DNA of 64,000 nt, taken from the NCBI RefSeq assembly GCF_014145675.1, contig NZ_JACGZW010000001.1, forward strand, positions 248,001-312,000, read 5' to 3'. Of this stretch, positions 21,866-56,600 are shown one piece after another. The notes beneath the pieces are model-generated. The model saw only the letters and a list, made by a program, of their open reading frames with translations. It was not told the DNA's origin and ran no database searches. The DNA is from Amycolatopsis dendrobii (GTDB taxonomy: Bacteria > Actinomycetota > Actinomycetes > Mycobacteriales > Pseudonocardiaceae). The position numbers and the translations under genes were made by a program. Each line of letters starts with the position of its first letter. Positions within the stretch are counted from its first letter, which is position 1.

Positions 21866-21891
21866 CGGGGGCCTTTCAGCTGCCGGGCAGG

Positions 21892-22602: not shown

Positions 22603-22626
22603 GGGAGTTCCTCCGAAGCAGGCGGG

Positions 22627-23367: not shown

Positions 23368-23755
23368 CTGCGGGCCCCACAACGCGGTGTCCCGCGGCGG
23401 CGAGCGCCTTCGAGGCCGCTTGGAGCTCAGTGACCAGCAGGTAGTCGGTGTCGTAGGTGGCGACCGCGAACACGCTCAGCCCGGCGTCCGCCAGCGGCGC
23501 GACGACTGACGAGAGCACGCCTGGTTCGTCGAGTCCCGACATGCCCGCGACCCGCAGGCAGTGCCATCCGCTGTCGCGGACCGCTCCGGGGACCTGGACG
23601 TCTTCGGCACAGATGACCGTCAGCTCGTCGCTCGTGCGCGTGACGCTGAGGAAATCGGCGGACCGGGTGAGCGCGTCGCCTGGGATCGGTGCGGCGGGCG
23701 GCAGCCGGCATACGGAGTATCTGCCGGGGACGGACCGGAGCGTTCGGGAGGACAT
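23360..23755 (-). CDS. ACT-domain protein (CASTOR/ACT7-like)
   Basis: 131-residue protein with tandem ACT-like folds. The second half reads SGLDEPGVLSSVVAPLADAG followed by LSVFAVATYDTDYLLV, the ACT7-type signature. ACT domains bind amino acids to regulate enzymes. Because the operon's homoserine dehydrogenase lacks its own ACT domain, this protein may supply feedback control in trans, or may instead sense a pathway amino acid. ATG 23755 begins MSSRTLRSVPG. It is co-transcribed between the VioC/AsnO-like and thioesterase genes. Confidence 0.8.
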   Translation of the reverse strand: MSSRTLRSVPGRYSVCRLPPAAPIPGDALTRSADFLSVTRTSDELTVICAEDVQVPGAVRDSGWHCLRVAGMSGLDEPGVLSSVVAPLADAGLSVFAVATYDTDYLLVTELQAASKALAAAGHRVVGPADD

Positions 23756-23765
23756 CGGGCTGCTC

Positions 23766-25864: not shown

Positions 25865-25867
25865 CGT

Positions 25868-37215: not shown

Positions 37216-40200
37216 CTAGTCGAGCGCGGACACAAGGATGCCCGCGAGTTTTTCTGCGTGGCTTTCCGAAAGCAGGGTGAAGTGATTTCCCGGAATGACA
37301 GAGACGGCGAGCCGGTCGAGGAGATGGCACCAGCCGCGGTCGGCGGTGTGATAGCACATGGGCAGTGCATCGGCGCCAGGGAAGTCCTCGGCGGCATGCA
37401 GCAGGGTGACCGGGCCGTCGAAGGGATCCGGGCGGTAGTCGAGGAAAGTCAGGCGGTTGCGGTCCAGCAGCGTGTGCAGTTCTTCCCCGGTTCCGCCTTC
37501 GAGTTCGGCTATGTCCATCGCCAGAATGGCCGCGCGCGCCTGGTCGTGTTCGGGGCCCGGGCCGAGCGCGGGCGGCGGAAGCAGGGTGTCGAGCAGCAGG
37601 AGAGCGGGCAGGACACCGCCGCGGGCGCGCCGCCGGCGGGCCATTTCGAGGGCGACGCAGCCGCCCATCGACCAGCCCGCGAGCACCAGCGGGCGGCCTT
37701 CGGCCAGCGGATCGACCAGGTCGAGGTAACGCTCGGCGAACTCGCCGATGGCCGTAGGCACCGGAACGGGCGTGCGGTCGGTGACTTGGAGGGCGTAGAC
37801 GGAGTAGGCGTCGCGCAGGTGCCGGGCCAACGGCACGAACGGCAGGGCCGATCCGCTGACCGCGTGGATCAGCACCATCACCGGCTTGTCCGGCCGCGGG
37901 TACAGCTCGACGAGATGGCCGGTCGCGGCGCCTGCCCCGGCTCGCATGCGGTCGGCGAGTTCGCCGACAGTGGCCGTGAGCAGGTCGACGGGATCCGGTT
38001 CGGCCCCCAGTTCGGCGTCGCAGATTTCGATGAGGCTGAAGGCGAGCAGCGAATGCCCGCCCAGTTCGACAAAGTTGTCGGCGAGCCCGATCCGGTCGAC
38101 GGCGAGCACGCGACGGAAGACGTCGATCAGCCGCGCGTCGAACTCGTCGCGCGGCGGCACGGTTTCCCGTTCGTCATCGTCGGCCGCTTGCAACGCGTTC
38201 AGCAGTGCGCGCTGGTCGGTCTTGCCGTTGACATTCGCCGGGACTGCCTCGATCTCGACGATCTTCGCGGGGAGCATGTGCGACGGCAGCAGAGTGGCGG
38301 CGTGGGCGAGCACGTCTTCGGCATCGAGCAGGCAGCCCGGTGCGGGAACGGCGAACGCGACCAGGCGCGGATTGCCGTCCCCCTCGGCCAGCACGACGCA
38401 GTCGGCCACCGACGGATGCTCGGCCACCACTGCCTCGACCTCTGCGGGCTCGATCCGCATCCCGCGGATCTTGACCTGCCGATCGATCCGGCCTAGATGA
38501 TCGAGGACGCCGTCGTCGCGGTAGCGGCAGAGGTCGCCGGTGCGGTACATGCGCGAACCCGGCGGACCGTACGGATCGGGCAGGAACCGTTCTGCCGTCT
38601 GGTCGGGACGGCGCCAATAGCCTTGCGCGACACCGACTTCGCCGCCCAGATAGGCCTCGCCGGGGATGCCGACCGGGCGGACCCGGAGGCCGTCGTCGAG
38701 GACGTAGAGCCGGAAGTGTTCGGCCGGACGGCCGAGCGGGACACGGGGGGAACCCGGGTCGGGCGGCAGCACCATGTCGGTGACGCAGCCGGCCTCGGTG
38801 GGCCCATAGCAGTTGATCAAGGCCGCGGAAGACCGTTCGTGGAACGCGTCGCGGATGCGCGGCGTGACCGGTTCGCCACCGCAGAACACCCAGCGAAGGG
38901 CCGTGCAGCGCACGGGTGAAAGATGCTCCAGCAGCGAGTGCATGATCGTCGGGATGAGGAAGACGGTCGTGACGCCGTGCCGGTCCATCAGTTCGGCCAG
39001 ATGGCGCGGGTCGCGATGGCCGCCGGGACGGCAGATAACCACGCGGGCCCCGAAGTACAGCGGCCAGAACAATTCCCAGATGGAGACGTCGAAGCCGTAG
39101 GAGGTCTTGAAAAGCGCGGTGTCGCCGAGGCCGAACGGGTAGAACCGCTGCAGCCAGAGGATGTTGGCGATCGCGCCGTCGACCGGGTAGGCGACGCCCT
39201 TGGGGCGGCCGGTCGATCCCGAGGTGTAGAGCAGGTGCAGCAGACTGCGCTCCGAGCCGCTCGGCACCAGATCGGAACCGGGGAGACCGGACCACGCGGA
39301 GGCGTCCCGCTCGACGTCTACGACGCGAGGGCCATTGGCGGGCAGTCGTGATTTCGTCGCGGTGTCGGCTAAAACGAGCAGCGGGTCGGTGTCGTCGAGG
39401 ACGAACGCGAGCCGGTCGTCGGGCAGTTCGCTCTCGAGCGGCACGTACGTTGCCCCGGATTTGGCGACCGCGTGCACTGCCACGAACTGCTCGATGCCGC
39501 GTTCGAGAGCGAGCGCGACGCGGGTGGCCGGTCCTGCGCCAGCTTGGCGCAGGTACCGGGCCAGCCGGTTCGCCCGGGCGTTGAGCTCCGCATAGGTGAG
39601 AGAGACGCCGTCTTCGTCTTCGATCGCGACGGCGTCGGGCGTCCGGCGGACCTGCTCCTCGAACGGCGCGGTGACAGTGCGGTACCGGTGCCGCGGCCGT
39701 GCGTAAGGGTTGAGGTCGTTGAGGATCCGTTTTTCTTCTGCTCTCGGTACCAGAGCCGCCGCCGCGATCGGCCGATCGGGCGCCGCGGTGAACTCGTCAA
39801 GCAGATGGGCATAAGTGGCGGCATCGAGCCTTGGTCCCGGACCAGTCGCCGGACGGGTGGTCACCTCGAACCCCCCGGCGGTTTCGGTGCAGGTCACAAC
39901 AGGTGCGGATGGGTCGGGAACCACTGTGGCCGCACCGAGTGCGAACCACGCGACGGCCGCTCTCTCGTCGTGTACACAGTGGACTGCACTGGACGCGGAC
40001 CCGCGTTGGATCAGTTCCGCGACGTGTCTTGTCAGTTCGCGAAAAGTTGTCCGGTCGTGAGCGCTGGCGTGCAGGACCGTCGAGGCGACGCCGCCATCCG
40101 GGCCGGGCCGGAGGTAGCAGGTCGGGTCCGGCGCGCCGGTGAGCCGGGCGGTGGCGGCGAGGTGTGCCGACAGCAGCGGTGCGGCCAGGTCGACGTTCTC

Positions 40201-40332
40201 GCTCGATGCGAGTGCGCGCAACCGCTGGCGAGTCACCGCGGACAGCGTCGCTGCGTGAACCCCCTGCCGGGCAAGGATTTCCGGTGCCCTTCCGGGCGAT
40301 TCGATCTCGGGACGAGTGCGAAGATCGTCCAT
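37216..40332 (-). CDS. NRPS-B: (C remnant)-A-T-TE
   Basis: 1038-residue free-standing loading/release unit. Residues 1 to about 205 match only the C-terminal part of a condensation domain and lack HHxxxDG. A domain about 225-730 with [25 protein letters not shown] and MYRTGDLCRY; read-out D-V-W-F-F-G-C-C-V-K, not matched to a known amino acid. T with [10 protein letters not shown] near 757. TE with AGWSMGG (Ser about 887) and C-terminal NHFTLL. Without a working C domain it probably loads, modifies and releases one amino acid. ATG 40332 is preferred because a TTGACA promoter overlaps the upstream TTG. Confidence 0.9.
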   Translation of the reverse strand: MDDLRTRPEIESPGRAPEILARQGVHAATLSAVTRQRLRALASSENVDLAAPLLSAHLAATARLTGAPDPTCYLRPGPDGGVASTVLHASAHDRTTFRELTRHVAELIQRGSASSAVHCVHDERAAVAWFALGAATVVPDPSAPVVTCTETAGGFEVTTRPATGPGPRLDAATYAHLLDEFTAAPDRPIAAAALVPRAEEKRILNDLNPYARPRHRYRTVTAPFEEQVRRTPDAVAIEDEDGVSLTYAELNARANRLARYLRQAGAGPATRVALALERGIEQFVAVHAVAKSGATYVPLESELPDDRLAFVLDDTDPLLVLADTATKSRLPANGPRVVDVERDASAWSGLPGSDLVPSGSERSLLHLLYTSGSTGRPKGVAYPVDGAIANILWLQRFYPFGLGDTALFKTSYGFDVSIWELFWPLYFGARVVICRPGGHRDPRHLAELMDRHGVTTVFLIPTIMHSLLEHLSPVRCTALRWVFCGGEPVTPRIRDAFHERSSAALINCYGPTEAGCVTDMVLPPDPGSPRVPLGRPAEHFRLYVLDDGLRVRPVGIPGEAYLGGEVGVAQGYWRRPDQTAERFLPDPYGPPGSRMYRTGDLCRYRDDGVLDHLGRIDRQVKIRGMRIEPAEVEAVVAEHPSVADCVVLAEGDGNPRLVAFAVPAPGCLLDAEDVLAHAATLLPSHMLPAKIVEIEAVPANVNGKTDQRALLNALQAADDDERETVPPRDEFDARLIDVFRRVLAVDRIGLADNFVELGGHSLLAFSLIEICDAELGAEPDPVDLLTATVGELADRMRAGAGAATGHLVELYPRPDKPVMVLIHAVSGSALPFVPLARHLRDAYSVYALQVTDRTPVPVPTAIGEFAERYLDLVDPLAEGRPLVLAGWSMGGCVALEMARRRRARGGVLPALLLLDTLLPPPALGPGPEHDQARAAILAMDIAELEGGTGEELHTLLDRNRLTFLDYRPDPFDGPVTLLHAAEDFPGADALPMCYHTADRGWCHLLDRLAVSVIPGNHFTLLSESHAEKLAGILVSALD

Positions 40333-40365
40333 GTGCACCCCCAGCAATGCGACAATCCCGATCGA

Positions 40366-40395
40366 AGTAAACGTCGGAATGTGTTTTGCTGTCAA
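40366..40395 (-). promoter_or_regulatory. Promoter of the leftward NRPS operon
   Basis: On the minus strand TTGACA (40395 to 40390) is followed after 18 bases by TTTACT (40371 to 40366). Transcription would begin near 40360, about 28 bases before ATG 40332 of NRPS-B. No cluster-specific activator gene is seen in the window. Confidence 0.55.
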
Positions 40396-40645
40396 GGCTT
40401 GTCCCTGGGTTGTTCATCGCCTATTGTCGCCGTTGCTGGGGTATCGCGATATTAGGGGGCAGGGCGGGGGTGGCCGCCGCTCCGGCGAGCTTTGATCACC
40501 ATTTTGATGATCCGCTCGCCCGCTGGGTTTCTGATCGGTGATCGTCTCCGCTGTGTCGGCGCTCTCGTGTCGAACGGTGCTGCCGATTCGGGAAAAAGTC
40601 GTGTTTGCATGGGGGTTTCGTGTTTCAAGATGCCGGGTGGGCACC
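40396..40645. other. Divergent regulatory region between the two NRPS operons
   Basis: The sequence is less GC-rich than its surroundings around 40480-40630, as expected for promoters. A 7-base inverted repeat, GATCACC (40494-40500) and GGTGATC (40537-40543), spans 36 bases and could bind a regulator. No secure rightward -35/-10 pair was picked out. Confidence 0.45.
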
Positions 40646-43264
40646 GTGAGCGAAGCAGTGGCGGAAGGCCGCACGACGGCTGGAGACGAGTGGTTCTCCG
40701 CGTCCGAAATGATCATTTCTGCGGCTCGGGAACATTCTGGACGAATTGCGGTCATCGATGCCGACGGTAGTGAAATCAATTATGCGGACATGTCCGCTAA
40801 TGTGCTGTCGCTCGCCGGAAAACTGCGCGATCTTGGTGTCGGCCCAGACCGGATGGTTGCGGTTATGCTACCCCGATCGGCCTACTCGGTCGCTGCCGTC
40901 GCAGCGATTCTGGCTGCGGGCGGAACGTACTGCCCGCTGGACGGGTCGGCACCGCGGCGGCGCACCGCCGGCCTGCTAGCCGCGCTGGCTCCGACGGTCG
41001 TGCTGACCGACGGCGGCATCCCGGCGGGGCTGCCGCGAGGAGCAGCCGTCCTCGACCCCGCCGGCGGGATTCTTTCGGCGTCGCAAGAGGGAACTGTTGC
41101 TCCTCCGCCGGGGGAGCCGAGACGCGACCATCTCGCGTACGTCATCCATACCTCGGGTTCGACGGGTCACCCCAAGGGTGTCGCGATGACCCACCGCGGG
41201 CTGAACAGGCTGCTGCGCTGGCAGGTGGCGAGCGGTCCTGCGGAGCTCCGCACCCTTCAGTTCACCGCGACCGGCTTCGACGTCACGTTCCAGGAAGTTC
41301 TGTCAACCCTGGCCACAGGCGGAACCCTGGTCATCCCGACCGACGAACAGCGGCGCAACCCGGCGCGGCTGCTCGACGTGGTGCGGGAGCGCGGCATCCA
41401 GCGTCTGTTCCTGCCGTATGTCGCCCTGCAGCAGCTGGCTGTCGTGGCGCAGACGACCGGCGAGTTCCCCGAGACGCTCGAACACGTCGTCACCGCGGGG
41501 GAGCGGCTGATTGTCACCGACGCGATCGCGGAGCTGTTCGCCAAGCTGCCCGGATGCCGGCTGGACAATCACTACGGCCCGACCGAGGCGCATTTGGTCA
41601 CTGCCGGGACGCTTCCAGCAGACCGGGCGGCTTGGCCGCAGCTGCCCTCGATCGGGCGGCCGGTGGACGGCGTCGGCTGCCGGGTGCTGGACTCCGGCCT
41701 CGAGCCGGTCCCGGACGGGAAAACCGGCGAACTCTACGTCAGCGGCGCCGGTCTCGCGCGCGGTTACCTGGGCGACCCGGCGCTGACCGCCGCTCGGTTC
41801 CTCCCCGATCCCTTCGGACAGCCCGGGGCGCGGATGTACCGGACCGGCGATCTGGTCCGGACCGGAGACGACGGGGAGTACGAGTTCGTCGGCCGCGCGG
41901 ACAGACAGCTGAAGGTCCGGGGTTTCCGGGTCGAGCCGGCCGAAGTCGAAGCGGCGATCCTGGGTCATCCGCGCATCACCGGCGCGGCGGTCGGCTTGCG
42001 CGAGGTCGCCCGCGGCGTCCCGGCGCTCGTCGCCTACGTGACCGCAGAAGGGCCGCTGGCGCACCAAGCGCTCGTCGGCTTTCTGCACGAGCGGCTGCCC
42101 GTCTACTTGATTCCTGCGCGGACCCTGGTCCTGCCGACGCTGCCGGTCGGAGCCAACGGCAAGGTCGACGCGAAGGCTTTGGCTGCTGTCGAGCTCCCCG
42201 CCTCGTTCGAACACGCCGTGGACACTGAAGTCACGGCGGATCTGGTGGCGGAGATCTGGGCCCGCGTGCTCGGCCACGACGATTTCGAACCGGACGACGA
42301 CTTCTTCGACGTCGGCGGTGACTCGCTGCTCGCCTCGTGGGTGGTCGCCGAACTGGGGCAGGCGCTCGGCCGCCCGGTGGACCTGTCGCTCTTCTTGGAG
42401 GACAGCACCGTCGATGATCTGGTCGCCGCGCTGGCGCGGACCGTCCCGCAGGCCCCGGGAGAACGGCCGGCTTCGCAGATCGTGACGCTGCGGGCCGGGC
42501 CCTCGACCCGTGCGCTGTACCTGCTGCATCCCCTCGGCGGCGAATTGGTCGGCTACCGCGAACTCGTCAAGGCGACGCGCTCGCCGTTGCGCGCTCTGGG
42601 CGTCGGATGGGCCGGCGAGCCGCCCGCGCCGGGGACCGCGCTGCCGGACATCGCGGCCGTGCACTTCGCGCAGCTGCGGACGATTCAGCCGCACGGGCCC
42701 TATCTGCTCGCGGGTTGGTCGTTCGGCGGTGTGCTCGCCTACGAATTGGCCCGGCAGTTGGCGGCCGCGGGGGAGGAGGTCGAGTTCCTCGGGCTGCTCG
42801 ACGCGAATCCGGTCCTCGACCCGCTGACCGCGCTTCCGCTCGGCGAAACCCGGCACGCCGGCGTGCTGGCCGCCGCCCTCGACCGGCTCGCCGACGGCGC
42901 GGATCTCGCGGCGCTGAGCCGGGACGGATCGTGGACGAGCCTGATGGGTGCGCCGGTCCCCGAGGGCGCGCCCGCCGAGCACCTGCGCCGCAGCCTGGGG
43001 ATCGCGCACACGTGCATGCGGGCCGCGATGGACTACCGGCCGGCAGCCTACGCGGGGCCACTGGACCTTTTCCAAGCCGCCGACGCCCCGCATGGCAAGC
43101 AGGCCGAGCTCGCCGGCGTGCTGCGGCGGTTGTGCACGGGCCGGTTCACGGCGACGACCGTCCCCGGCGACCACTGGGGGATCACACGAGAGCATGCCGG
43201 GGCGACCGCCGCGGCCATCGACAGCGCACTGGAACGGGCGGGTGAGCAGAATGGACACCATTGA
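40646..43264 (+). CDS. NRPS-C: A-T-TE with proline-type specificity
   Basis: About 872 residues; no condensation domain. A domain 1 to about 520 (IHTSGSTGHPKG near 169, [18 protein letters not shown]). The eye-aligned code D-V-Q-F-V-A-H-L-V-K shares 7 of 10 positions with the published proline code DVQLIAHVVK. T with DVGGDSLLAS near 557. TE with AGWSFGG (Ser about 690) and PGDHWG. Free-standing A-T-TE proteins usually hold an amino acid for a tailoring oxygenase and then release it. The next genes encode a SyrB2-like enzyme and a proline 3-hydroxylase homologue. The start GTG 40646 is a best guess; GTG 40637 is also possible. Confidence 0.88.
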   Translation: MSEAVAEGRTTAGDEWFSASEMIISAAREHSGRIAVIDADGSEINYADMSANVLSLAGKLRDLGVGPDRMVAVMLPRSAYSVAAVAAILAAGGTYCPLDGSAPRRRTAGLLAALAPTVVLTDGGIPAGLPRGAAVLDPAGGILSASQEGTVAPPPGEPRRDHLAYVIHTSGSTGHPKGVAMTHRGLNRLLRWQVASGPAELRTLQFTATGFDVTFQEVLSTLATGGTLVIPTDEQRRNPARLLDVVRERGIQRLFLPYVALQQLAVVAQTTGEFPETLEHVVTAGERLIVTDAIAELFAKLPGCRLDNHYGPTEAHLVTAGTLPADRAAWPQLPSIGRPVDGVGCRVLDSGLEPVPDGKTGELYVSGAGLARGYLGDPALTAARFLPDPFGQPGARMYRTGDLVRTGDDGEYEFVGRADRQLKVRGFRVEPAEVEAAILGHPRITGAAVGLREVARGVPALVAYVTAEGPLAHQALVGFLHERLPVYLIPARTLVLPTLPVGANGKVDAKALAAVELPASFEHAVDTEVTADLVAEIWARVLGHDDFEPDDDFFDVGGDSLLASWVVAELGQALGRPVDLSLFLEDSTVDDLVAALARTVPQAPGERPASQIVTLRAGPSTRALYLLHPLGGELVGYRELVKATRSPLRALGVGWAGEPPAPGTALPDIAAVHFAQLRTIQPHGPYLLAGWSFGGVLAYELARQLAAAGEEVEFLGLLDANPVLDPLTALPLGETRHAGVLAAALDRLADGADLAALSRDGSWTSLMGAPVPEGAPAEHLRRSLGIAHTCMRAAMDYRPAAYAGPLDLFQAADAPHGKQAELAGVLRRLCTGRFTATTVPGDHWGITREHAGATAAAIDSALERAGEQNGHH

Positions 43265-44138
43265 TCTCGAGGCCGAAAAGCACGTCTTCGACCGGCAGGG
43301 GTACATCGGCCCGTACACGCTCTGGGAACCCGAGGTGATGACGGCCTGGTGGAAGCAGCAGCGCAAGCAGTTGCTCAATCCCGCCGGGCCTTCGCGCAAG
43401 GTCTTCGACAACCCGGTCAACTACGACCGGCACCTCGACATCGGCGGCCTGGGCAAGATCATCACCGAACCGGCCATCGTGCGCCGGATGCAGGCGCTGA
43501 TCGGCCCGGACATTCAGTGCTGGCGAAGCGAGTTCTTCCCGAAGAACCCGGGCGACTCCGGCACCGGCTGGCACCAGGTCGAGACCTACGCGATCGGCGA
43601 GACGGCCAAGGGCATGCTCGAGCCGACCGAGCACTCGCCGGAGAACCCGATGGAGCTGACCGCCTGGGTCGCCTTCACTGAAGCTGCCAAAGAGAACGGC
43701 TGCATGAAGGTCCTGCCCGGCAGCCACCGAAAGTGGCGTTATGACGAAACCGCACCGATGAAGTGGAACAACGCGCGCGCCGACGCCTCGTTCTTCGGAT
43801 ACGACTACAACGACATCAAGATCGATCAGAACTGGAATCCTGACGAGCAGAACGTCACGCACCTCGAGATGCGGCCGGGACAGTTCATCATCTTCACCGC
43901 GAGGTGCATCCACGGGTCCAACCCGAACATCAGCAACCGCCAGCGGATGGGGTTCGCGATCCGGGTGGTGCCCACGCACGTCCGGGTCTACGGCGGCATG
44001 ACCGAGTTCGACGAGTTCGGGCACCACTTCGACCTCTCGCGCCACGGCTGTGTGCAGATCGCGGGCAAGGACGAGTACGGGCTCAACCGGATCGCGACGG
44101 AAAACGCGTGGGGGGAACCCTTCGCCACCCTCTCGTAA
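43251..44138 (+). CDS. SyrB2-like Fe/2OG enzyme with HxV instead of HxA/HxD
   Basis: 295-residue PhyH-family protein collinear with the chlorinase SyrB2: CWRSEFFPKNPGD, FFGYDYNDIKIDQNWNPDE, GQFIIF and MGFAIR correspond to near-identical SyrB2 segments. Expected centre: His108, His221 and 2OG-binding Arg238. The residue that is Asp/Glu in hydroxylases and Ala118 in SyrB2 is Val110 (WHQVETY), so a facial carboxylate is missing, as in halogenases, but with a bulkier side chain. SyrB2 acts on an aminoacyl carrier; NRPS-C immediately upstream (14-base overlap) is the likely partner. Hydroxylation through Glu111 is an alternative. Confidence 0.85.
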   Translation: MDTIDLEAEKHVFDRQGYIGPYTLWEPEVMTAWWKQQRKQLLNPAGPSRKVFDNPVNYDRHLDIGGLGKIITEPAIVRRMQALIGPDIQCWRSEFFPKNPGDSGTGWHQVETYAIGETAKGMLEPTEHSPENPMELTAWVAFTEAAKENGCMKVLPGSHRKWRYDETAPMKWNNARADASFFGYDYNDIKIDQNWNPDEQNVTHLEMRPGQFIIFTARCIHGSNPNISNRQRMGFAIRVVPTHVRVYGGMTEFDEFGHHFDLSRHGCVQIAGKDEYGLNRIATENAWGEPFATLS

Positions 44139-44151
44139 GGACGGTCGGATC

Positions 44152-45006
44152 ATGCGCACGCAACACATCGGCTCCCTCGAACTCGATCGGGCCCGGCTGG
44201 CCGAAGACCTGGAAACCAGCGCCGGATTCCGCTATTCGGAGGCCTACAGCGACTATCTGTGCGGCGGCCCGTGGAAGAGCGCGGTGCTCTGGGCCGCGTC
44301 CGGGGACAGTGGCGACGGCCTGGTGACGAACTACGACTACGCCAAGGCTCCCGACCTCACTGACTACGGCAAGCAACTGCCCTACATCTGGGGCCTGGTG
44401 GCGGATCTGGTCGACCTCACCCGGCTGAATTTCGCGCGGCTGGCGGTGATCTCCGACAGTGTGATCATCCCGCACCGCGACCTGCTCGAGCTCGAAAGCA
44501 TCCCGGGGGAGTCGCGCAACGCGCACCGGATGCACATCCCGCTGGTCACCAACGACCGCTGTTTCTTCAGTTCGGGCAACGAAGTCTACCGGATGGCCGA
44601 GGGCGAGGTCTGGTTCTTCGACGCCGCGCAGGTGCACTCGGCTGCGTCGTTGTCCAGCACGCCTCGCGTGCACCTGATGCTCGACTTCACCGATCAGGAA
44701 AGCGACGAGCCGCTGGTGAAGTTGCCGTACCGCGTCGACGGCGGGATTCCGGCGGACCGCGTGGAGCGTCGCCCGCCGATGTCCGAAGAGGAACGGGCAG
44801 AGCTGCTGGGTCTCGCGCCGCTGATCACGATGGACAACTACCGCGACGTGTTCAGCATCGTCATCAAGAAGCACTTCCGCGCGGACGGCGGGGACGACTT
44901 CGTCTGGCGCACCATGCGGGAGATCGCACGGGCCGGCCGCGATCCGGCGGTCGCTGCCCGCATCGACGAAATGCAACGGTACTTCACCTTGGAGCGATCC
45001 GCGTAG
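44152..45006 (+). CDS. Proline 3-hydroxylase-like 2OG oxygenase
   Basis: 284-residue member of the L-proline 3-hydroxylase group within the aspartyl/asparaginyl hydroxylase fold. The start MRTQHIGSLELDRARLAEDL, SVIIPHRDLLELE (His108, Asp110), EVWFFDAAQVHSA (His162) and the 2OG-binding Arg172 all follow Streptomyces proline 3-hydroxylase. The long C-terminal domain of that enzyme is also present. The NRPS-C adenylation domain reads as proline-type, so 3-hydroxyproline is the simplest product. Related enzymes also use pipecolate or leucine. ATG 44152 lies 13 bases after the previous stop. Confidence 0.87.
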   Translation: MRTQHIGSLELDRARLAEDLETSAGFRYSEAYSDYLCGGPWKSAVLWAASGDSGDGLVTNYDYAKAPDLTDYGKQLPYIWGLVADLVDLTRLNFARLAVISDSVIIPHRDLLELESIPGESRNAHRMHIPLVTNDRCFFSSGNEVYRMAEGEVWFFDAAQVHSAASLSSTPRVHLMLDFTDQESDEPLVKLPYRVDGGIPADRVERRPPMSEEERAELLGLAPLITMDNYRDVFSIVIKKHFRADGGDDFVWRTMREIARAGRDPAVAARIDEMQRYFTLERSA

Positions 45007-45018
45007 GGAGTGGTTCAC

Positions 45019-45693
45019 GTGACGACGACAATGCCGCTGGCAGAACAGCTGGCCGAGAGCGCGGCGCACGCCGAGTTCGCCGGCCATCCGTTCTTCCGCA
45101 ACGTCAAGGCCGAGGACTGGGACCGGGACAAGGTCGCGGTCCTGCTCGGGCAGTGGTGGCATCCGCTGCACTACTTCCCGACGTTCTTGGCCCGCTGTGT
45201 CGCGGTCCTGCCCGACATCGCCTCGAAGAGCGCGATCACGCTGATCCTCAACCAGGAGGCGGGCGGGGGCAAGGAAGCGATGGCACACGAGGTGATCTAC
45301 GCCGATTCGATGGAGCGCGCAGGATTCGCCCGCGCGGCCGTGACCGGCACCGAGCCGTTCGCCGAGACCGCGGAGCTCGTCGCAGGGTACGAACGCGGCT
45401 CAGCTGGATGGAAGTCGGCGCTGGGCTACATCTACGCCACCGAAACCACAGATCTGCTGATGGTCTCGAGCATCGGCCAAGCGGTCGCCGCGGTGACCGG
45501 CGGCGCCGACAACGAGTGGGTGCGGATCCACGTCCAGCAGGAACCCGACCACGTCGAGGAGGCCGAACACGCGCTGCTGACCGGGTTCGCCCCCGACGTC
45601 GAAGCGGAGGTGCTGGCCGGCGCCGACGAGATGTGGCGGCTGTGGACGAGGTTCTTCGACCGCCTTGTCGCCGAGACCGGCATGGCGAGCTGA
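45019..45693 (+). CDS. Haem-oxygenase-like diiron oxygenase (HDO)
   Basis: About 224-residue all-helical protein of the haem-oxygenase-like superfamily (relatives include UndA, BesC and the SznF central domain). Candidate iron ligands are the Glu of LNQEAGGG with the His of AMAHEVIYADSM, the Glu of YATETTDLL and the His of VQQEPDHVEEAEHA. These enzymes perform N-oxygenation, decarboxylation or C-C cleavage. Here it sits between a proline hydroxylase and a fatty-acid desaturase, so the substrate could be an amino acid or a fatty acid. GTG 45019 was chosen because GGGAG lies 9-10 bases upstream; GTG 45010 is in frame. Confidence 0.8.
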   Translation: MTTTMPLAEQLAESAAHAEFAGHPFFRNVKAEDWDRDKVAVLLGQWWHPLHYFPTFLARCVAVLPDIASKSAITLILNQEAGGGKEAMAHEVIYADSMERAGFARAAVTGTEPFAETAELVAGYERGSAGWKSALGYIYATETTDLLMVSSIGQAVAAVTGGADNEWVRIHVQQEPDHVEEAEHALLTGFAPDVEAEVLAGADEMWRLWTRFFDRLVAETGMAS

Positions 45694-45711
45694 CTGGAGG
45701 AGGTGGGTGCG

Positions 45712-46836
45712 GTGCAGGACGACGTACGGGCGACATACCTGCGATTCCCCGGGTGGACGCAGCATTTCTGGACGTGGCAGACCGGGAAGGCGCTGCCCGG
45801 TCAACGGCCGCTGATCCGGCACAGCTGGGCCTCCTATGTCGCGCTCACCCTGATCGTCTACGTCGCTGGCCTGTCGTTGTCGGCCTACGCGGTCGCCGCC
45901 ATGTTCCCGTTGTGGTATTTGGCGCTGCTGGGCGGCTGGATCCTGACCCTGTCCGGCGCCCGCACCATGGTGCTGGTGATCGCGCACCAGGCGCTGCATC
46001 GGAGGTTCTCGGGCAGCGCTCGGACCGATTGGTTCTTCGGCGAGCTGGTCACCGTGCTGACGGTGTTCCAGAACTTCCAGGCGTTCAAGGACGAGCACTT
46101 CGACTCGCACCACCGTCGCGAGGTGTTCGCGACGCTGGACGATCCGCCGGTGCAGGTGTTGCTGGGCCTCGGCTTCCGGCCTGGAGTGCCGAAGCGGCGG
46201 CAGTGGCGGCGGGCATGGCAGGTGTTCCTGTCGCCGAAATTCTACTGTCTCGGTTTCTTCGACCGTGCGAAGTGCAATGTGCTGACCGGAACCTGGCGTC
46301 GGGCGGGGTTCGCGCTGTGGGCCGGATTCTGGCTGTCGACGCCGTTCTGGCTGCCGCACGGCGTTCTCGTGCTGCTGCTGGCGTTCGTCGTCCCAGTGAT
46401 CCTGCTGGCCCAGCTGTCCGCCCTGCTCGACAAACTGGGCGAGCATGCCTGGCTGACCCCGCCGAATCCCGACCACCCCGGGAAGTTCTACACAGTCGAG
46501 GCGACCGCAGCGCGCTACTGCGGCAGCCCGGTTCCCGCGAAGGGGACGCCGATCGGAAGGCAGACGCTGGGGTGGGTGCGGTGGACGGCGGCAACGCTGT
46601 TCTACCACCTGCCGTGCCGGCTTACGGTGATCGTGGGCGACCTGCCCAATCACGATTTCCACCATCGCTATCCGGCCACGCCGGACTGGACCACGGCGGC
46701 GTACGCGCGGCAGACCGACATCGACGAGGGCCCGGAAGGGCCGCCGTACAGCGAGGTGTGGGGGATGGGCGCGGCCATCGGCCGGGTGCTGGCCCGGCTG
46801 GAGGAGGTGCCGCCCGATGCGAGCCTGGCTCGTTGA
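45712..46836 (+). CDS. Membrane fatty-acid desaturase/hydroxylase
   Basis: 374-residue integral membrane diiron enzyme. The three histidine boxes are HQALH, DSHHRRE and NHDFHHRYP, and hydrophobic pairs lie around residues 40-90 and 205-255. It probably introduces a double bond, or a hydroxyl, into the fatty acid that the FAAL of NRPS-A loads. GTG 45712 is preferred because GGAGGAGG ends 8 bases upstream. It overlaps the PhzF gene by 20 bases. Confidence 0.88.
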   Translation: MQDDVRATYLRFPGWTQHFWTWQTGKALPGQRPLIRHSWASYVALTLIVYVAGLSLSAYAVAAMFPLWYLALLGGWILTLSGARTMVLVIAHQALHRRFSGSARTDWFFGELVTVLTVFQNFQAFKDEHFDSHHRREVFATLDDPPVQVLLGLGFRPGVPKRRQWRRAWQVFLSPKFYCLGFFDRAKCNVLTGTWRRAGFALWAGFWLSTPFWLPHGVLVLLLAFVVPVILLAQLSALLDKLGEHAWLTPPNPDHPGKFYTVEATAARYCGSPVPAKGTPIGRQTLGWVRWTAATLFYHLPCRLTVIVGDLPNHDFHHRYPATPDWTTAAYARQTDIDEGPEGPPYSEVWGMGAAIGRVLARLEEVPPDASLAR

Positions 46837-47623
46837 CACTTTCGCCGACGCGCGATTCCTCGGCAACCCGGCCGCCGTCGTCCTCGGCGACGATCTGCCC
46901 GGGGCCGAGCGCATGCAGGCAGTGGCCCACCGGCTCGCCGAGCCGACGACGGCATTCCTGGCGCCCGCCGGCCCGGGGGAGTACCGGATCCGCTGGTTCA
47001 CCCCGCACAAGGAGATCAACCTGTGCGGGCACGCGACGATCGCCAGCGCGGGGTTCCTGTTCGAGACCACGGGACGCTCCACGCTGTCCTTCGTCAGCAG
47101 GAACGGCACGCTGTACACCGAACGCCGCGACGATCGCATCGCGATCGACATGCCTCGTTCGGACGTGGCGCAGTGCGCGCCGCCGGACGGGCTGCGCGGG
47201 GCGATCGGGACCGATTTCGTCGCCTGCGCAGCCTCCAGCGACGACCTGCTGATCGAAGTCGCTTCGGAAGCCGCGGTCGTCGCGACCGCGCCCCGGTTCC
47301 GGGCGCTCGCGGACTTCCCGTTCCGCGGTCACATCGTGACGGCGGCCGCGGATCGCCCTGAGGCGGATTTCGTGTCCAGGACTTTCTTCCCGTCGCTCGG
47401 GGTCGACGAGGACCAGGTGTGCGTTTCTGCGCATTGCAAGCTCGGGCCCTACTGGGCGGGCAGGCTCGGCCGGACCGCGATGTCGGGGCTGCAGCTTTCG
47501 GAACGGGGCGGCCGGCTCGACGTCGAGGTCGGCGGCGACCGGGTGAAGATTTTCGGGACGGCGCGCCTGCGCCCGTCCCCGGTGGCGGTGCCGGAAACCG
47601 GCGAGATCGCCGCGTTCGGCTGA
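46817..47623 (+). CDS. PhzF-family isomerase/epimerase-like protein
   Basis: 268 residues, two-lobed PhzF fold. It has [18 protein letters not shown] at the start, the catalytic Glu of [10 protein letters not shown], and [20 protein letters not shown]. PhzF-like proteins catalyse proton shifts or cyclisations without a cofactor. In NRPS clusters they may isomerise an amino acid or a carrier-bound intermediate. The sequence gives no direct substrate clue. It sits immediately ahead of NRPS-D (19 bases). Confidence 0.88.
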
Positions 47624-47642: not shown

Positions 47643-50600
47643 ATGCCCGGTCACTCGAGCGGAAAGTTCGGCCTGACCGCCGGCCAGCTCGAAGAGTTCG
47701 AACGAGTCCTGCTGGACGAGGGGCTCGCCGCACCGGGCGATGCCGGGATACCACGACGCACGCCCGGTGCCGCCGCGCCCGCCTCGTTCGCGCAGGAGCG
47801 GCTGTGGCTGGCTGAACATCTCGACGCGGGCAGCGCTTACAACGTCGCCGTCGCGGTCGACGTCGAGGGCGACCTCGATCGGGACTGCCTGTCCTGGGCG
47901 CTCGGCGAGGTCGTCCGGCGGCATGAGGCCCTCCGCACCACCTTCGATTCCGCCGACGGCGCCCCGACGCAACGGATCAACGACCGCGGCAGCGCGCCGG
48001 TGACCACAGTGGATGCTCGCGAATGGACGGACGACGCGGTCGAGGAGCGCACAGTTTCGGAGGCGCGCCGCACGTTCGACCTCGCCGCCGGTCCGCTGCT
48101 GCGGGCGTGTCTGCTGTGCCGTTCGGCCGCGCGACACCGGCTCGTCCTGACCGTCCACCACATCGTCGTTGACGGCTGGTCGATGGGCGTGCTCGTCTCG
48201 GAATGGCTGGAGCTGTACGAGAGCCGCCGTGCGGGCCGGGCGCCCGCGCTGGCCGAGGTCGCGCTGCACTACGCCGATTTTGCCTGCTGGCAACGGGAAT
48301 GGCTCACCGGCGACCGGGTGGAGCGCCAGCTCGCGCACTGGCGGACGGCACTCGCCGGACTGCCCGAACTGGACCTGCCGACCGACCGCTTGCGTCCGGC
48401 GGTGCCTACCGGTGAGGGCGCGGAGCACGTGTTCGCGCTTCCGGCCGCACTGCGAGCCCCGGCGGCCGAACTGTGCCGTCGCGAGGGCGTCACGCTGTTC
48501 ATGCTGATCCTCGCCGCCACGCAGGTGCTGCTGGCGCATGAGAGCGGGCAGGACGACATCGCCGTCGGCTCTCCGATCGCCGGCCGGCCGCGGCCCGAGC
48601 TGGAGAACGTCGTCGGGTTCTTCTCCAACACCCTGGTGCTGCGCGGCCGCCTGCGCGCCGCCGAGACCTTCCGGGAGTACCTCGGGCGCGCGCGCGAGGC
48701 GACGCTCACGGCTTACGAGAACCAGGACGTCCCGTTTGAGCGGCTCGTCGAGGAACTCGCGCCGCGCCGCGCCCTCGACCGCGCGCCGCTGTTCCAGGCG
48801 ATGCTCGTCCTCGACGCGCCGCTGCCGGAGATTTCCCTGCCGGGGCTGCGGGTGTCGGCTCGGCCGGTGGATACCCGGTCGTCGATGTTCGACCTCACCA
48901 TCACCCTCGACGAGCGCCTCGCAGGATCAGTGACCTACCGCGCGGATCTGTTCGCCCCGGCCACGATCGCACGCCTGGCCCGAAGGCTCGGCGAGGTCCT
49001 CGAACGGATCACGGCGGATCCGGATGTTCCGCTGGCGCGGCTGGCCGAGCCCGGCGCGGCCGAACGGGAACGCCTGTTCGCCATGGGGACCGGCAAGGCC
49101 GAGGCACCGGACCGTTCGGTCGTCAGCCGGATCGAAGAGCAGGCGGACCGGACTCCCGACGCCGTCGCGCTCATGTTCGGCGAAAAGACCTGGACGTACC
49201 GGCAGCTCGACCAGCGCGCGAACCGGCTCGCCCATCGGCTGCGCGAGCTCGGGGCGGTGCCGGACACCGTCGTCGCGCTCCTGCTCGAGCGCTCGCCGGA
49301 CTTGCTGATCGCGATGCTCGCAGTGCTCAAAGCCGGCGGCGCGCATCTGCCGCTCGACCCCGCGGATCCCGACGAACGCCTGGCCGCGCTGGTCGCGCAT
49401 TCGGGCGCGGCCGTTCTGGTGACTGCCCGGCCGGACCGCTTGCCCGGCATGGGGATCGCGACGATCGGGGCAGAGGCGGACGGGCCGGACACCCGGCTGC
49501 CGCTGAACGCGACGGCGGACAATCTTGCCTACGTCCGCTACACGTCCGGTTCGACCGGCAAGCCGAAGGGCGTCGCGGTCACGGTCGGAAATCAGGCGCA
49601 TGTAGTGGACTCGGTGGTCAGCACACTCGGTCTCAATGCCGGGACCCGGATGCTCGGCCGCGCCACCGTCGTGTTCGACATGGCCGAGGTCGAACTGCTC
49701 GCGCCGCTCGTCGCGGGCGGCGCGGTGGTATTGCTCGACGAAGAACAGTCCCGGGACCAGCGAGCGGTCGTCGCGGCGGTCAACGCCGGGCGCTGCACCG
49801 CGGTTCAGACCACGCCGTCGCTGTGGCGCACCATGCTCGACCTCGGGATGGCACCGCCGTCCGGGATGGCCTTCCTCACCGCAGGCGAGGCGTTGACCGC
49901 CGGCCTCGCCGCCGAACTGCGCGCCCGCTCCGCGAGACTGGTCAACCTCTACGGCCCGGCAGAGGCCACCACGGCGACCGTCGGCGACATCACCGCGGAA
50001 CCGGAGGGACTGCCGTCGATCGGCGGGGTGTTCGGCTCGACATTCGTCGTCGTGCTGGGTCGCGACGGCCGGCTGGTCCGCGAGGGTGTGGTGGGCGAAC
50101 TGTACGTCGACGGCGGCGGCGTCGCGCGCGGCTATCTCGGCGAGCCGGGGCTCACCGCCGAGCGATTCGTGCCGAACCCGTTCAGCGGGCACGGCGCCCG
50201 GCTCTACCGCACCGGGGATCTGGTGCGATGGCGCCCGTCCGGGGTGCTCGAGTACATCGGCCGGGCGGATCACCAGGTGAAGATCCACGGCATCCGGGTC
50301 GAGCCGGGCGAGGTGCAGGCCGTGCTGGCGGGCGAGGAATCCGTCGCTGGCGTCGCCGTGGTCGCTGCCGGCCGCGGTCAGTCGACCCGATTGATCGCCT
50401 ACGTCGTCGCGGCGCCGGGGTACCGGTTCGACGAGCGCGGGCTCCGGACGTACGCCGCGCGGTTCCTCCCGGCCGCGCTCGTGCCGTCGGCATTCGTGGA
50501 ACTCGCGGCGCTGCCGCTCAACGCCAACGGCAAGCTCGACCGGTTCGCACTGCCCGAGCCGCCCGCCGCGGTGCCCGACGACAGCAAACCGGCGACCCCG

Positions 50601-53600
50601 GAGGAGCACCTGCTGGCCCAGGTCTGGGCCGATCTCCTCGAACTGCCCGCAGTCGGCGTGCACAGCGATTTTTTCGCGCTCGGCGGCCATTCGCTGCTCG
50701 CCACGCAGCTGATGGCCAGGGTCCAGAAGCTGTTCTCTGTCGAGCTTCCGCTGCGCGCGGTCTTCGAATCGCCCACGATCGCCCGGCTGGCCGCGGCGAT
50801 CGTCGAGGGCCGGGCCGCGCACCCGGCGCTACCGCCCGTCGTCCCGGCCGAGCACGACGTGCCGCCGCTGTCCTTCGCCCAGGAGCGGCTGTGGTTCGTC
50901 GATCAGCTGCTCGGTGGCGCGGCCTACAACATCGCCATCGCCGTCGGCCTGACCGGGGAACTCCACGCGGAAAGCCTGACGTGGGCGCTGGAACAGCTGA
51001 TGCTGCGCCACGAGGTGCTGCGCACGACGTTCGAGGCCGACGGTGGCGAGCCGGTCCAGCGGATCCGGCCCGATGCGCGGATCGCGGTCAAGACCGTCGA
51101 CACGGCCGGATGGGCCGCGGCGGACGTGGACGCGTTCGCCGCGCGGCACGCCAGCGAGCCGTTCGACCTGGCACGGGACACGCTCGTCCGGGCCTGCCTG
51201 TTGCGCTCGGCGGAAACCGAACATCTGCTGGTGTTGACTATCCACCACATCGTCGTCGACGGCTGGTCGATGGGCGTGATCGTCAGCGAGCTCGCCGAGC
51301 TCTACGCGAGCCGCCGGGACGGACGCTCGCCCGCGCTTCCGGAAGCGGACCTGCAGTATGCGGACTACGCGGTGTGGCAGCGTGGCTGGCTGCGCGGCGA
51401 CCGGCTCGACCAGCAACTCGGGTATTGGCGCGAGCAACTCGCGGACGTCCCAGTCCTCGCACTGCCCACGGATTTCCCTCGGCCCGCCGTCCCTGCCGGC
51501 GAAGGCGCGGAGTTCGAGTTCGCGCTGCCGGCCGAACTCCGCGGACCGGTCGCCGAACTCTGCCGTCGCGAGGGCGTGACATTGTTCATGCTGCTGCTAG
51601 CGGCCGCCCAGGTACTGCTTGCGCACGACAGCGGCCAGCACGACATTGCCATCGGGTCGCCGATCGCGGGGCGGCGCCGCCCGGAACTCGAGCGCCTGGT
51701 CGGGTTCTTCGTCAACACGCTGGTGCTGCGCGGGAGGGTCCAGTTCGACGTCCCGTTCCGCGACCTCCTTGCGGGAGTGCGCGAAACGACGCTGGCCGCC
51801 TACGAGCATCAGGACATCCCGTTCGAACGGCTCGTCGAGGAAATCGCGCCGCAGCGCGAACTCGACCGGACGCCGCTGTTCCAGGTGATGCTGGTGCTGC
51901 AGAACGCGCCTCTGCCCGCGTTGAGCCTGGACGGTGTCGAAGTGACCGCGCGCTCGGTCGATACCGGGTCGGCGATGTTCGACCTGACTGTCACGTTCGA
52001 CGAAGAGCTCACCGGCACCGTCACCTACCGCACCGACCTCTTCGCCGAGCCGACGATCGCGCGGTTCACCCGGCACCTCGGTGAGATCCTCGCCGCGGTC
52101 GTCGCCGACGCCGGGATCTCGGTGGCTGTCCTCGGCGAGCCGACCGGCGAGGAGCGGCACCGGCTGCTGGCCGACTGGAACGGCGACCCGGAACCGCAGC
52201 GGACGCCCTCGGTCCGCGAGTTGATCGAGGCACAAGCGGACCGGGCCCCGGAGGCGACCGCATTGCACTTCGGCGACCAGCGGTTCAGCTACGGCGAGAT
52301 CGAGATTCGGGCCAACCGCCTGGCGAACCGGCTGCGCCGCGCCGGGGCCGGTCCGGACGCGATCGTCGCGGTCTGCCTCGACCGTTCCCCGGAGTTGGTT
52401 GTCACGCTGGTCGCGGTGCTCAAAGCCGGCGCGGCCTACTTGCCCGTCGATCCGACTGACCCGGCTGAACGTCTGCAGGCGCTCATCGCCCGATCCGGTG
52501 CGCCGGTCGTGGCGACCGAGGAGAGACACCGCGCCCGGCTCGCCATGCCAGGGCCGGAGTTCGTGTGCGTCGAAGACGTCGGCGACGACGAATCGGCCGC
52601 GCGCCCCGCGATCCGGCCCGCGGCGGACAACCTCGCCTATGTGCGCTACACCTCGGGCTCGACCGGGCGGCCCAAGGGCGTGTCGATCACTGTCGGCAAC
52701 CAGTCGCACTTCGTCGGCTCGGCGATCAGCCTGCTCGGGATCGACTCCGCCAGCCGTGTTCTCGCCCGCGCCAACGCGAACTTCGACATGACCGAGGTCG
52801 AGGTCCTCTCGCCGCTGTGCGCGGGCGCCGCTGTCGTGCTGCTCGGCGAAGACGAGGCACGGGACCAGCGCGCGGTCGCGGCGGCGATCAACGAAGGACG
52901 TTGCACCGTAGCGCAGACCACGCCGTCTCTGTGGCGGACGATTCTGGACCTCGGGCTCGATCCCGCGCCTGACGTCACGTTCATCACTGCGGGCGAGGCT
53001 CTCACCGCCGATCTGTCCCGGCGGCTGCAGCCGATGTGCAAGCGGCTGCTCAACCTCTACGGCCCGACCGAGATCACCGTCTACGCGACTTACGACGTCG
53101 TCGACGACCCCGAGGCCGCGCCGGCGATCGGCGGGGCGTTCGGGTCGACGTTCCTGGTCGTGCTCGGGCCGGACGGGCGGATGGTCCGCGAAGGAGTCGT
53201 CGGCGAGTTGCACGTGGGCGGCGGCGGGGTCGGCCGCGGCTACCTCGGAGCGCCCGCGCTGACAGCCGAGCGGTTCGTCCCGGATCCGTTCGGCCCGCCG
53301 GGTTCCCGCCTCTACCGCAGCGGCGACCTGGTGCGGTGGCGTGCGGACGGGTCGCTCGAATACGCCGGACGGATCGATCACCAGGTGAAGATCCACGGCA
53401 TCCGGGTCGAACCGGGCGAGATCCAGGGCGTGCTGTCCGAGCACGGGTCGGTCGACGACGTGGCTGTTGTCGCGGCGGGCGAAGGCCCGGATGCGCGGCT
53501 CGTCGCCTACGTCGTGCCGGCACCCGGCGAGGCGGTCGACTCGGCGGTCCTGCGCGAGTACCTGACCCGGTTCCTGCCGCTTGCTCTCGTGCCGTCAGCG

Positions 53601-56600
53601 TTCGTCGAACTGGCGGCGCTGCCGTTGAACGTCAACGGAAAACTCGACCGATTCGCGCTGCCAGCCCCGCCGATGACCACAGTCGAGGCCGACACCGCCG
53701 CACCGCGGACCGTCGAGGAGGAACTGCTCGCGCAGGTCTGGGCCGAGTTGCTCGGCGCTGAAAACCCCGGCATCCACGACGACTTCTTCGCGCTGGGCGG
53801 GCATTCCCTGCTCGCCACTCGGCTGATGGCGCGCGTGCAGACACTCTTCGCGGTGGAACTGCCGCTGCGCGTGGTCTTCGAGTCGTCCACGATCGCCGCG
53901 TTGGCCAAGGTCATCGAAAGCGGTCGCGGGGCGCACCCAGCTCTCCCGGCCCTCGACCGCGCACCCCAGCACGACGGCGCGATGCTGTCCTACGCCCAGG
54001 AACGATTGTGGCTGCTCGATCAGCTCGTCGGCGGAGTCGCCTACAACATCGCGGCCGGTGTCGGCCTGGTCGGCAACCTCGACACGGACGCGCTGGATCA
54101 CGCCCTGACCGATCTCGTGGCGCGGCATGAGGCGCTCCGGACGACGTTCGAGGACACCTGCGCCGGCCCGGTGCAGCGGGTGCATTCGCCGGGACCGGTG
54201 CGCGCCGAGGTCGTGGACACGACGGGACCGCTGGACGAACTGGCGTCGGCACAGGCTCGACTGCCGTTCGACTTGAGTCGCGGCCCGCTGCTGCGCGCCA
54301 GCCTTCTGCGATCCTCGCCGGTCGAACACCTCCTGGTGTTGACCATCCACCACATCGTCGTCGACGGCTGGTCGATGGGCGTGCTCGTTTCCGAGCTTCT
54401 CGAGCTGTACGCCGCGCACCACGCAGCTCGGCCCTCCACATTGGACGAGCCGGTGCTGCAGTACGCGGATTATGCGCACTGGCAACGCGGCTGGCTGCGG
54501 GGCGAACGCCTCGACCGGCAGCTCGCGTACTGGCGCGAGCAGTTGGCCGACCTGCCGGTCGTGTCCCTTCCGGCCGACCGTCCGCGTCCCGCGGTGCCCA
54601 CCGGCGCAGGCGCCGAGTTCGAGTTCGCGTTCCCCGCCTCGTTGCTGGAGAAGATCGGGCGCTTGTGCCGCGAGGAAGGCGCCACTCTTTACATGGTGCT
54701 GCTCGCCGCGTTGGAGCTAGTGCTCGCGCATCACACCGGCCAGCGCGACATCGTCGTCGGTTCGCCGGTCGCGGGACGCCGCCGCCCGGAGCTGGAGTCG
54801 CTGGTCGGGTTCTTCGTCAACACGCTCGTGCTCCGGGGCCGGGTCGACGCGGGCGAGTCTTTCGCCGACCTGCTCGCGAGAGTGCGGGAAACGACCCTGG
54901 CCGCGTTCGAGCACCAAGACGCGCCCTTCGAACGGCTGGTGGAGGAGCTGGCGCCACACCGGGATCTGGACCGGTCCCCGCTGTTCCAGATAATGCTCGT
55001 GCTGCAGAACGCCCCGCTGCCCGAAATCGAATTGCCGGGGTTGACCGTGACGCCGCGGCCGGTCGACACCCGCGCGTCGATGTTCGACCTGACCGTCACG
55101 TTCGACGAACAGCTCGCCGGTACCGTCACGTACCGGACGGATCTGTACGAACGGAACACCATAGCGCGGCTGATCGAGGATCTGCGGCGGGCGCTGGAGA
55201 AGGCAGCCGAGGCACCCGGCCGCGCGGTCGAACTGCTCGATGCCGGCGAGCGGGCGCGATTGACCGAGCTCGCCTCCGGCCCGCGCACCCAGATTCCCGC
55301 CGTCTGCCTGCACGAGCTGGTCGCCGCGCAGGCTCGGCGCACCCCGGACGCGGTCGCAGTGCATGCGGAACGGGTGCTCACCTACGCCGAACTCGACGCT
55401 TGTGCCGATGCGTTGGCGGCGCGGCTGCGTGCGTGCGGCGTCGGTCCGGACACACGGGTCGCGATCGCGCTCCATAGGTGTGCGGCGTTGCCCGTCGCGT
55501 TGCTCGGGACGCTGAAGGCCGGCGGGTGCTGCGTTCCGCTCGACCTGGACCAGCCGATCGAGCGGCTGCGGGCGATTGTCTCGGACTCCGGCGCGGTCGC
55601 AGTCGTGGCCGGGTCGGACCGGCTCGCCGGGGACCTGCCGAGGCTCGAAGCGGACCTGCACGCCGCCGGCGTCCCGGTCGAATCCGGCGCAGCGCCGGAG
55701 AATCTCGGGTACGTCATCTACACGTCCGGTTCGACCGGCCGGCCGAAAGGCGTCCTCGTCCGTCACGCCTCGCTGGTCAACCACATGCTCTGGATGAACC
55801 AGGCTTACCCTCTGGGCACTGGCGACCGCGTGCTGCAGAAGACGGCGATCGGCTTCGACGCGTCGATCTGGGAGTTCTGGGCCCCGCTGCTCGCCGGCGC
55901 GACGCTCGTCCTCGCCCGGTCCGGCGACGAACGCGATCCCGGCCGCCTGGTGCACCTGCTGCGCGAGCACCGGATCACGACGCTGCAGGTCGTGCCCGCG
56001 CTGCTGGAGGTGCTGCTCGACACGCCGGGCATCGCCGGGTGCACGGCGTTGCGGCGAGTGTTCTGCGGAGGCGAGTCGTTGCCCGCTGCGGTCGCCCGCC
56101 GGTTCCGCGCCGCCCTGCCCGCACAACTGGTCAACCTCTACGGCCCGGCGGAGTCCTGCATCGACGCGGTCGTGCACGACGTCGGCCCGGACAGCGCGGT
56201 GCCGATCGGCCGGCCGGTCAGCAATGTCCGCGGTTACGTCCTCGACGACCGGCACCGGCTCTGCGCGGCCGGCGTCGTGGGCGAGCTGTGCCTCGCCGGG
56301 GCCGGTCTCGCGCGCGGTTATCTCGGCCGGCCGGACCTGACCGCCGAGGCGTTCGTGCCGGACCCGTTCGGGGGGCCTGGCGAACGGCTCTATCGGACCG
56401 GGGACCTCGCGAGGATGCGGTCCGACGGCACGTTCGAGCACATCGGCCGCCGGGACAGCCAGCTCAAGATCCGCGGACACCGCGTCGAGCCGGCCGAAAT
56501 CGAGGCGGCGCTCAGCTGCCACCCCGCGGTCCGGGAGATCGCCGTCGCGGCACGCGGACGCCTGGTCGCTTATGTGTCCTTGCGGCCGGGGACATCGCTG

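Follow-up and report, generated by a model that had tools for sequence, protein, structure and literature searches.

The closest described relatives of the enzyme analyzed here are the carrier-dependent Fe/2OG halogenases of the TIGR01762 family, SyrB2 and CytC3. In SyrB2 the chloride occupies the third iron site next to Ala118 (PMC2767507, PMC4019311; what we take from these and from the other papers cited refers to the accessible portions of each text). P4H was inactivated when its Asp was exchanged for Ala or Gly, and so was SyrB2 when its Ala was exchanged for Asp or Glu (PMC2767507). A further carrier-dependent enzyme is the kutzneride piperazate chlorinase KthP, which chlorinates a carrier-bound cyclic residue and is likened here by its description (PMC12615548). 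The EctD and PhyH hydroxylases belong to the same superfamily but keep an HxD motif and use free or CoA-bound substrates (for EctD, PMC2871039). Human Asp/Asn beta-hydroxylase (AspH) has two histidines and a tightly bound water that is supported by the second-sphere residue Asp721, and it does not halogenate its substrate domains (PMC13168262). These enzymes bear on what decides between chlorination and hydroxylation at a two-His iron.

Here we describe a SyrB2-like gene of Amycolatopsis dendrobii in which the carboxylate position is neither an acid nor Ala or Gly but Val. The gene, termed HxV, lies in a stretch of 64,000 nucleotides that was analyzed as a whole and is called the window; its features are collected in Table 1.

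Table 1. Features of the HxV gene and of its neighbors, in positions of the window
Feature	Position	Strand	Remarks
NRPS-B, A and TE domains (Pfam)	37216..40395	-	code DVWLFGCCV; no T domain at the 1e-8 limit
NRPS-C, A-T-TE (Pfam)	40538..43264	+	code DVQFVAHLV from motif anchors; probable substrate carrier
HxV gene, SyrB2-like Fe(II)/2OG enzyme (295 aa, P0001)	43251..44138	+	ligands by alignment
HQVE motif, His108-Gln109-Val110-Glu111	43572..43583	+	CAC CAG GTC GAG, within WHQVETY
Val110 codon GTC	43578-43580	+	aligns with SyrB2 Ala118
Glu135 codon GAG	43653..43655	+	SyrB2 T141
Arg218 codon AGG	43902..43904	+	SyrB2 T232; base of the V-type network
AspH/proline-3-hydroxylase-type 2OG oxygenase	44152..45006	+	PF05118 and PF05373; HxD (HRD) by eye
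Haem-oxygenase-like diiron (HDO) type enzyme	45010..45693	+	PF14518
Membrane desaturase/hydroxylase type enzyme	45703..46836	+	PF00487
PhzF-type protein	46817..47623	+	

The HxV protein is clearly a member of the SyrB2 family. Matches to PDB entries found with phmmer cover almost its full length (CytC3, E 1.3e-67; SyrB2, E 3e-66), and an AlphaFold2 model with a mean pLDDT of 88.9 and a pTM of 0.90 has SyrB2 (2fct_B) as its closest solved structure, with a TM score of 0.88. The collinearity with SyrB2 that a first-pass annotation of this DNA had claimed is thus borne out. Identity is 38% to SyrB2 in the structural alignment and 37-43% to members of the CytC3 group. The protein scores 308.2 bits against the TIGR01762 model "chlorinating enzyme", above the curated cut-off of 226.3, and the same model recovers all 91 members of alignment A1, including both groups that this alignment contains; A1, the input to AlphaFold2, held 91 of the 241 proteins collected by then. 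Model and alignment together give a SyrB2-type fold with two histidine ligands and the 2OG arginine: the predicted iron ligands His108 and His221 align with SyrB2 His116 and His235, and the predicted 2OG-binding Arg238 with R254. The distal HGSxxN of V-type proteins is by eye nearer to that of the EctD/PhyH hydroxylases than to that of the chlorinases. At the first histidine the protein reads HQV, which is neither the HxD/E of 2-His-1-carboxylate oxygenases nor the HxA/HxG of Fe/2OG aliphatic halogenases. The first-pass annotation had seen this valine at the position that is Asp/Glu in hydroxylases and Ala or Gly in halogenases, and the alignment of Val110 with Ala118 confirms it. The automatic annotation of the gene as a "chlorinase" is consequently doubtful.

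The frequency of this valine was examined in three sets of homologs. Set V1, the group of this gene, consists of the best 120 of 709 matches (query entry included) plus loci L007 and L008; set A, the CytC3 group, holds the best 120 of 2409 matches to a CytC3 fragment; and set C holds the best 120 of 534 matches from a search seeded with L033, a 40% identical HQVEKY protein that is itself added to the set. Among the best 120 of the 709 matches, own entry included, Val110 is present in 120/120, Tyr113 in 120/120 and Glu111 in 119/120, and with L007 and L008 added Val110 is found in 122/122. Val110 is thus neither a chance occurrence nor a sequencing error. The listed proteins of set A have Ala at this position in 119/120 and Ser in the remaining one, with Phe113 in all 120, while those of set C have Val in 118/121 and Thr, Ser and Ala once each. 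Throughout the 122, 120 and 121 listed proteins of V1, A and C, the residues His108, His221, Arg232, Arg238 and Trp139 are invariant.

Judged from these alignments, the HxV type is made up of two groups, V1 and the more distant C, which stand beside a single HxA group. Trees were built from rows picked per group (30 in one tree, 18 in the other). In the 30-row tree, built with the trait columns removed, V1 falls on one side of a branch with support 100/99, A does likewise (100/100), and V1 plus A are separated from C (100/98). The proposal that HxV proteins form a clade therefore holds for V1, with C found as a second HxV group. The root falls at the C group in both rooted trees. The outgroups sit on very long branches, and their HxD is off by two columns relative to the ingroup in all three outgroups of the 30-row tree and in three of the six in the 18-row tree. 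An AU test does not reject V1 and C as a single clade (p 0.40). Given this p value and the long outgroup branches the rooting of V1, A and C is unsure, and both a succession from Asp through Val to Ala and a change from Ala to Val stand.

The substitution at position 110 does not occur in isolation. Position 135 is an acid in 122/122 V1 and 121/121 C proteins and in 0/120 of A, and position 218 is Arg or Lys in 122/122, 120/121 and 0/120, respectively, all counted in the sets of best-listed matches; the Glu at 135 is replaced by Asp in some valine-group members. The only exception at 218, the group C protein P0275, has Met218 but Lys111. A plasmid-borne protein of Streptomyces NBC_00069 (L074/L083) similarly combines Val110 and Asp135 with Arg111 and Ser218. 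Consequently, one base at either 218 or 111, and never at both, is present in all 243 listed valine-group proteins versus none of the 120 in A. The same regularity is observed in a table of loci that leaves aside L010 and L042-L072 (PhyH outgroups or weak matches): the V-type loci, 18 rows that stand for 14 distinct places or proteins, all carry the acid together with a single base, and the 32 A-type loci have no base and no acid at 135, one of them being gapped there. The base has moved from 218 to 111 twice, which suggests that 218 and 111 are neighbors with 135 as their partner and that the three positions form a salt-bridge cluster. The HxV enzyme is therefore not an isolated oddity, but part of a large branch whose members differ from the Ala group in several linked positions around the predicted active site.

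Other positions are exchanged as well. The equivalent of SyrB2 S231 (position 217) is Ser in 120/120 listed A proteins and Ala in V1, that of W230 (position 216) is Trp in 119/120 and Thr in V1, and that of N123 (position 115) is Asn or His in 116/120 and Ile or Val in V1. We take S231, together with F121, to line the chloride pocket of SyrB2. As far as alignments can tell, the valine and the lost Ala-group residues speak against a standard halide site. Glu94, the equivalent of SyrB2 E102, is kept in 242/242 listed V1 and A proteins and is Asn or His in C, a pattern that would suit aminoacyl substrates for V1 and A, with perhaps a different acyl group for C. The border members of group C, P0351, P0359 and P0360, have Thr, Ser or Ala at 110 and keep acid and base; as P0360 combines Ala110 with both, the network does not require Val, and the pairing of E135 with R218 may have no role beyond structure. 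Glu111 was also considered as an iron ligand and is disfavored: four of the 243 listed valine-group proteins have Q, K, A or N in its place and L074/L083 has Arg. The position with an acid in every one of the 243 is 135. As a separate observation, P0351 and P0359 have a Glu at 217, four residues before the distal His, as do 23 of the 121 listed group C proteins in total. This spacing equals that of Asp721 to His725 in AspH (PMC13168262), a match that may be due to chance.

The gene neighborhood would fit a carrier-bound substrate. NRPS-C shares its last 14 bases with the beginning of the HxV gene, and its code is close to DVQFIAHVV, which we take to be the proline code. The earlier statement that a proline-type A-T-TE protein lies directly upstream is supported by the Pfam domains, by the code and by this overlap. 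No substrate match is known to us for the NRPS-B code. Ten V1 loci were available with flanks (the window, L001-L006, L007, L008 and L040), and in nine of these an NRPS-C homolog is located directly upstream of the HxV gene. Wherever the anchors could be read this homolog carries the code DVQFVAHLV, with DVQFIAHLI at L008 (the middle letters in L005 aside). The tenth locus, L007 on a Pyrinomonadaceae contig, has a lone PP-binding protein at this place, so that a carrier-bearing protein precedes the HxV gene in 10/10. Ahead of the PP-binding protein of L007 there is a class I aminoacyl-tRNA-synthetase-like protein (PF00133; 489-2321), which might take over the loading step that an A domain performs elsewhere. 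The AspH/proline-3-hydroxylase-like gene was found in 8/10 loci (not in L007 or L040), and the HDO, desaturase and PhzF genes were found in 8/10 (not in L007 or L008). With tailoring genes that vary and a carrier in every V1 locus, the constant partner of the HxV gene is the carrier. A C-type locus, L039, has its HxV gene among an AMP-ligase, a PP-binding protein and an amidohydrolase, and additionally contains a further small ORF that resembles a carrier but matches no Pfam family.

The HDO-type enzyme of the window scores 33.9 bits against the BesC model, far under the cut-off of 500. Because of this neighboring gene, HrmJ/BelL-like nitrocyclopropane chemistry was considered as a candidate; it is disfavored, as HDO is not a constant partner and L008 is without it. 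Elsewhere in the window, a 3868-aa NRPS (47643-59249) ends, by eye, in a TauD-type oxygenase-like region that follows a condensation-like domain. Genes for a P450, a 2OG-FeII_Oxy_3 protein, a TauD protein, a homoserine dehydrogenase and an SHMT-family protein adjoin NRPS genes at 20639-27223 on the minus strand.

Our leading, if tentative, reading of these data is that the HxV protein is a Fe(II)/2OG oxygenase of a prolyl-S-carrier with an AspH-like center of two histidines and water, and that it hydroxylates rather than halogenates. The enzyme would act on L-proline or a near analog tethered to the T domain of NRPS-C, whose TE would then release the modified residue or hand it on. Iron would be bound by the two histidines only, and Val110 would shrink the site where SyrB2 holds chloride. 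The network of Glu111, Glu135 and Arg218, if placed at the pocket as we infer, would rebuild the pocket wall. Water rather than halide would then fill the third iron site, and the ferryl would hydroxylate or otherwise oxidize the carrier-bound residue. Hydroxylation of prolyl-S-T, or a related oxidation, is favored because Val and the conserved acids would suit water in the third site more than halide. AspH, which likewise has no carboxylate ligand, is the analog for the water and second-sphere acid proposed here; it belongs to another 2OG family and has a protein substrate, so the likeness is confined to the proposed mechanism. Several points argue against hydroxylation. To our knowledge the characterized carboxylate-less members of the SyrB2 fold, SyrB2 and CytC3, halogenate (PMC4019311). 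P4H no longer hydroxylates once its carboxylate is removed (PMC2767507). A base near the site could also favor an anion.

A true halogenase remains a serious, though somewhat less probable, contender. The methyl groups of Val would point away from iron in a rotamer that could leave room for a halide, and prolyl-S-T would be chlorinated or brominated, perhaps cryptically, with a later elimination, ring closure or epoxide. The HxV enzyme has in common with SyrB2 and CytC3 the fold and family model, the two His, the 2OG Arg, the Glu at SyrB2 102 that is kept throughout listed V1 and A, the absence of the HxD/E carboxylate and, by context, a carrier-bound aminoacyl substrate like that of the halogenases reviewed in PMC4019311; KthP provides a precedent for chlorination of a carrier-bound cyclic residue (PMC12615548). 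It differs from them in Val, an acid, a base, Ala and Thr at the equivalents of 118, 141, 232, 231 and 230. Halogenation is thus opposed by the replacement of Ala by Val throughout listed V1 and nearly throughout listed C, by the extra acids at 111 and 135, and by the absence from V1 of the S231, W230 and N/H123 equivalents that are fixed in the Ala group. Additionally, a 2026 halogenase survey treats HXG/A as the mark by which halogenating members of this class are told (PMC12871659), and the accessible portions of the literature searched tie no halogenated product to any V-type gene.

Whether the substrate is instead a residue carried by NRPS-B or by the main assembly line, and not the proline of NRPS-C, is a separate matter that is compatible with any of these chemistries, and we consider it unlikely. 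An NRPS-B homolog occurs within the stretch in 7/10 V1 loci. Moreover, Nostoc sp. UHCC 0926 has a V1-like gene (48% identity, with Val110, Glu111, Glu135 and Arg218) between two NRPS genes, of which three A domains read DFWNIGMVH by hand, presumably a Thr code. Against this, the HxV gene of the window directly adjoins NRPS-C with a start/stop overlap, NRPS-C is upstream in 9/10 loci, and no NRPS-B homolog was found in the 20 kb examined at L005 and L006. Least probable, and indeed quite improbable, is that Glu135 or Asp135 swings in from another strand as third iron ligand to give a 2-His-1-carboxylate hydroxylase. In its favor, an acid at 135 is present in 243/243 listed valine-group proteins versus 0/120 in A, and none of the six outgroup hydroxylases in the alignment has one (three are gapped there and three have A or L). 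Against it, the base conserved along with this acid suggests a salt bridge between them, Trp139 follows only four residues after position 135, which is at a strand start, and the outgroup alignment is poor. Hydroxylation, halogenation and a re-sited carboxylate together very probably include the actual chemistry.

No HxV member of the SyrB2 family is reported in the accessible portions of the open-access literature searched (including HXV, H-X-V, A118V and Val118), nor was a known product of a V-type gene found there. It is possible, though we are inclined to doubt it, that the HxV branch represents a second natural carboxylate-free Fe/2OG solution within the SyrB2 fold. Val and a Glu135-Arg/Lys218 pair would then make a water or re-sited carboxylate site out of the halide pocket, and a large family of carrier-bound hydroxylases would be misnamed chlorinases. 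The family provides a natural set of many Val enzymes beside Ala chlorinases, with positions 110, 111, 115, 135 and 216-218 differing in step. Chlorination by V-type enzymes would show the HxA/G rule to be drawn too tightly, and its absence would mean that the label "chlorinating enzyme" is wrong for many genes. As the HxV gene in the window comes with its likely carrier, a direct assay is feasible.

Genes of the TIGR01762 type are rare. A match (E <= 1e-40) was present in 1 of 396 genomes sampled from the phylum. With P0001 (E <= 1e-50), matches were obtained in 20 of 397 genomes sampled from the order and in 9 of 394 genomes sampled from the class. V-type genes account for two of the 20 order genomes with a match (that of the window and G719, which holds two A-type genes besides) and for two of the nine class genomes (that of the window and G790). 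Of 27 plasmid records with a match, 11 were examined; four of these are V-type, with H2 and H3 being one protein, and seven are A-type. By raw count, a cation:proton antiporter gene occurs near the TIGR01762 gene in four of six annotated plasmid regions with flanks of at least 3 kb, one V-type and three A-type (L074, 4245-5522; L076, 13381-14625; L077, 7791-9101; L079, 4721-6034). The window contains a Na_H_Exchanger gene as well, at 18877-20121.
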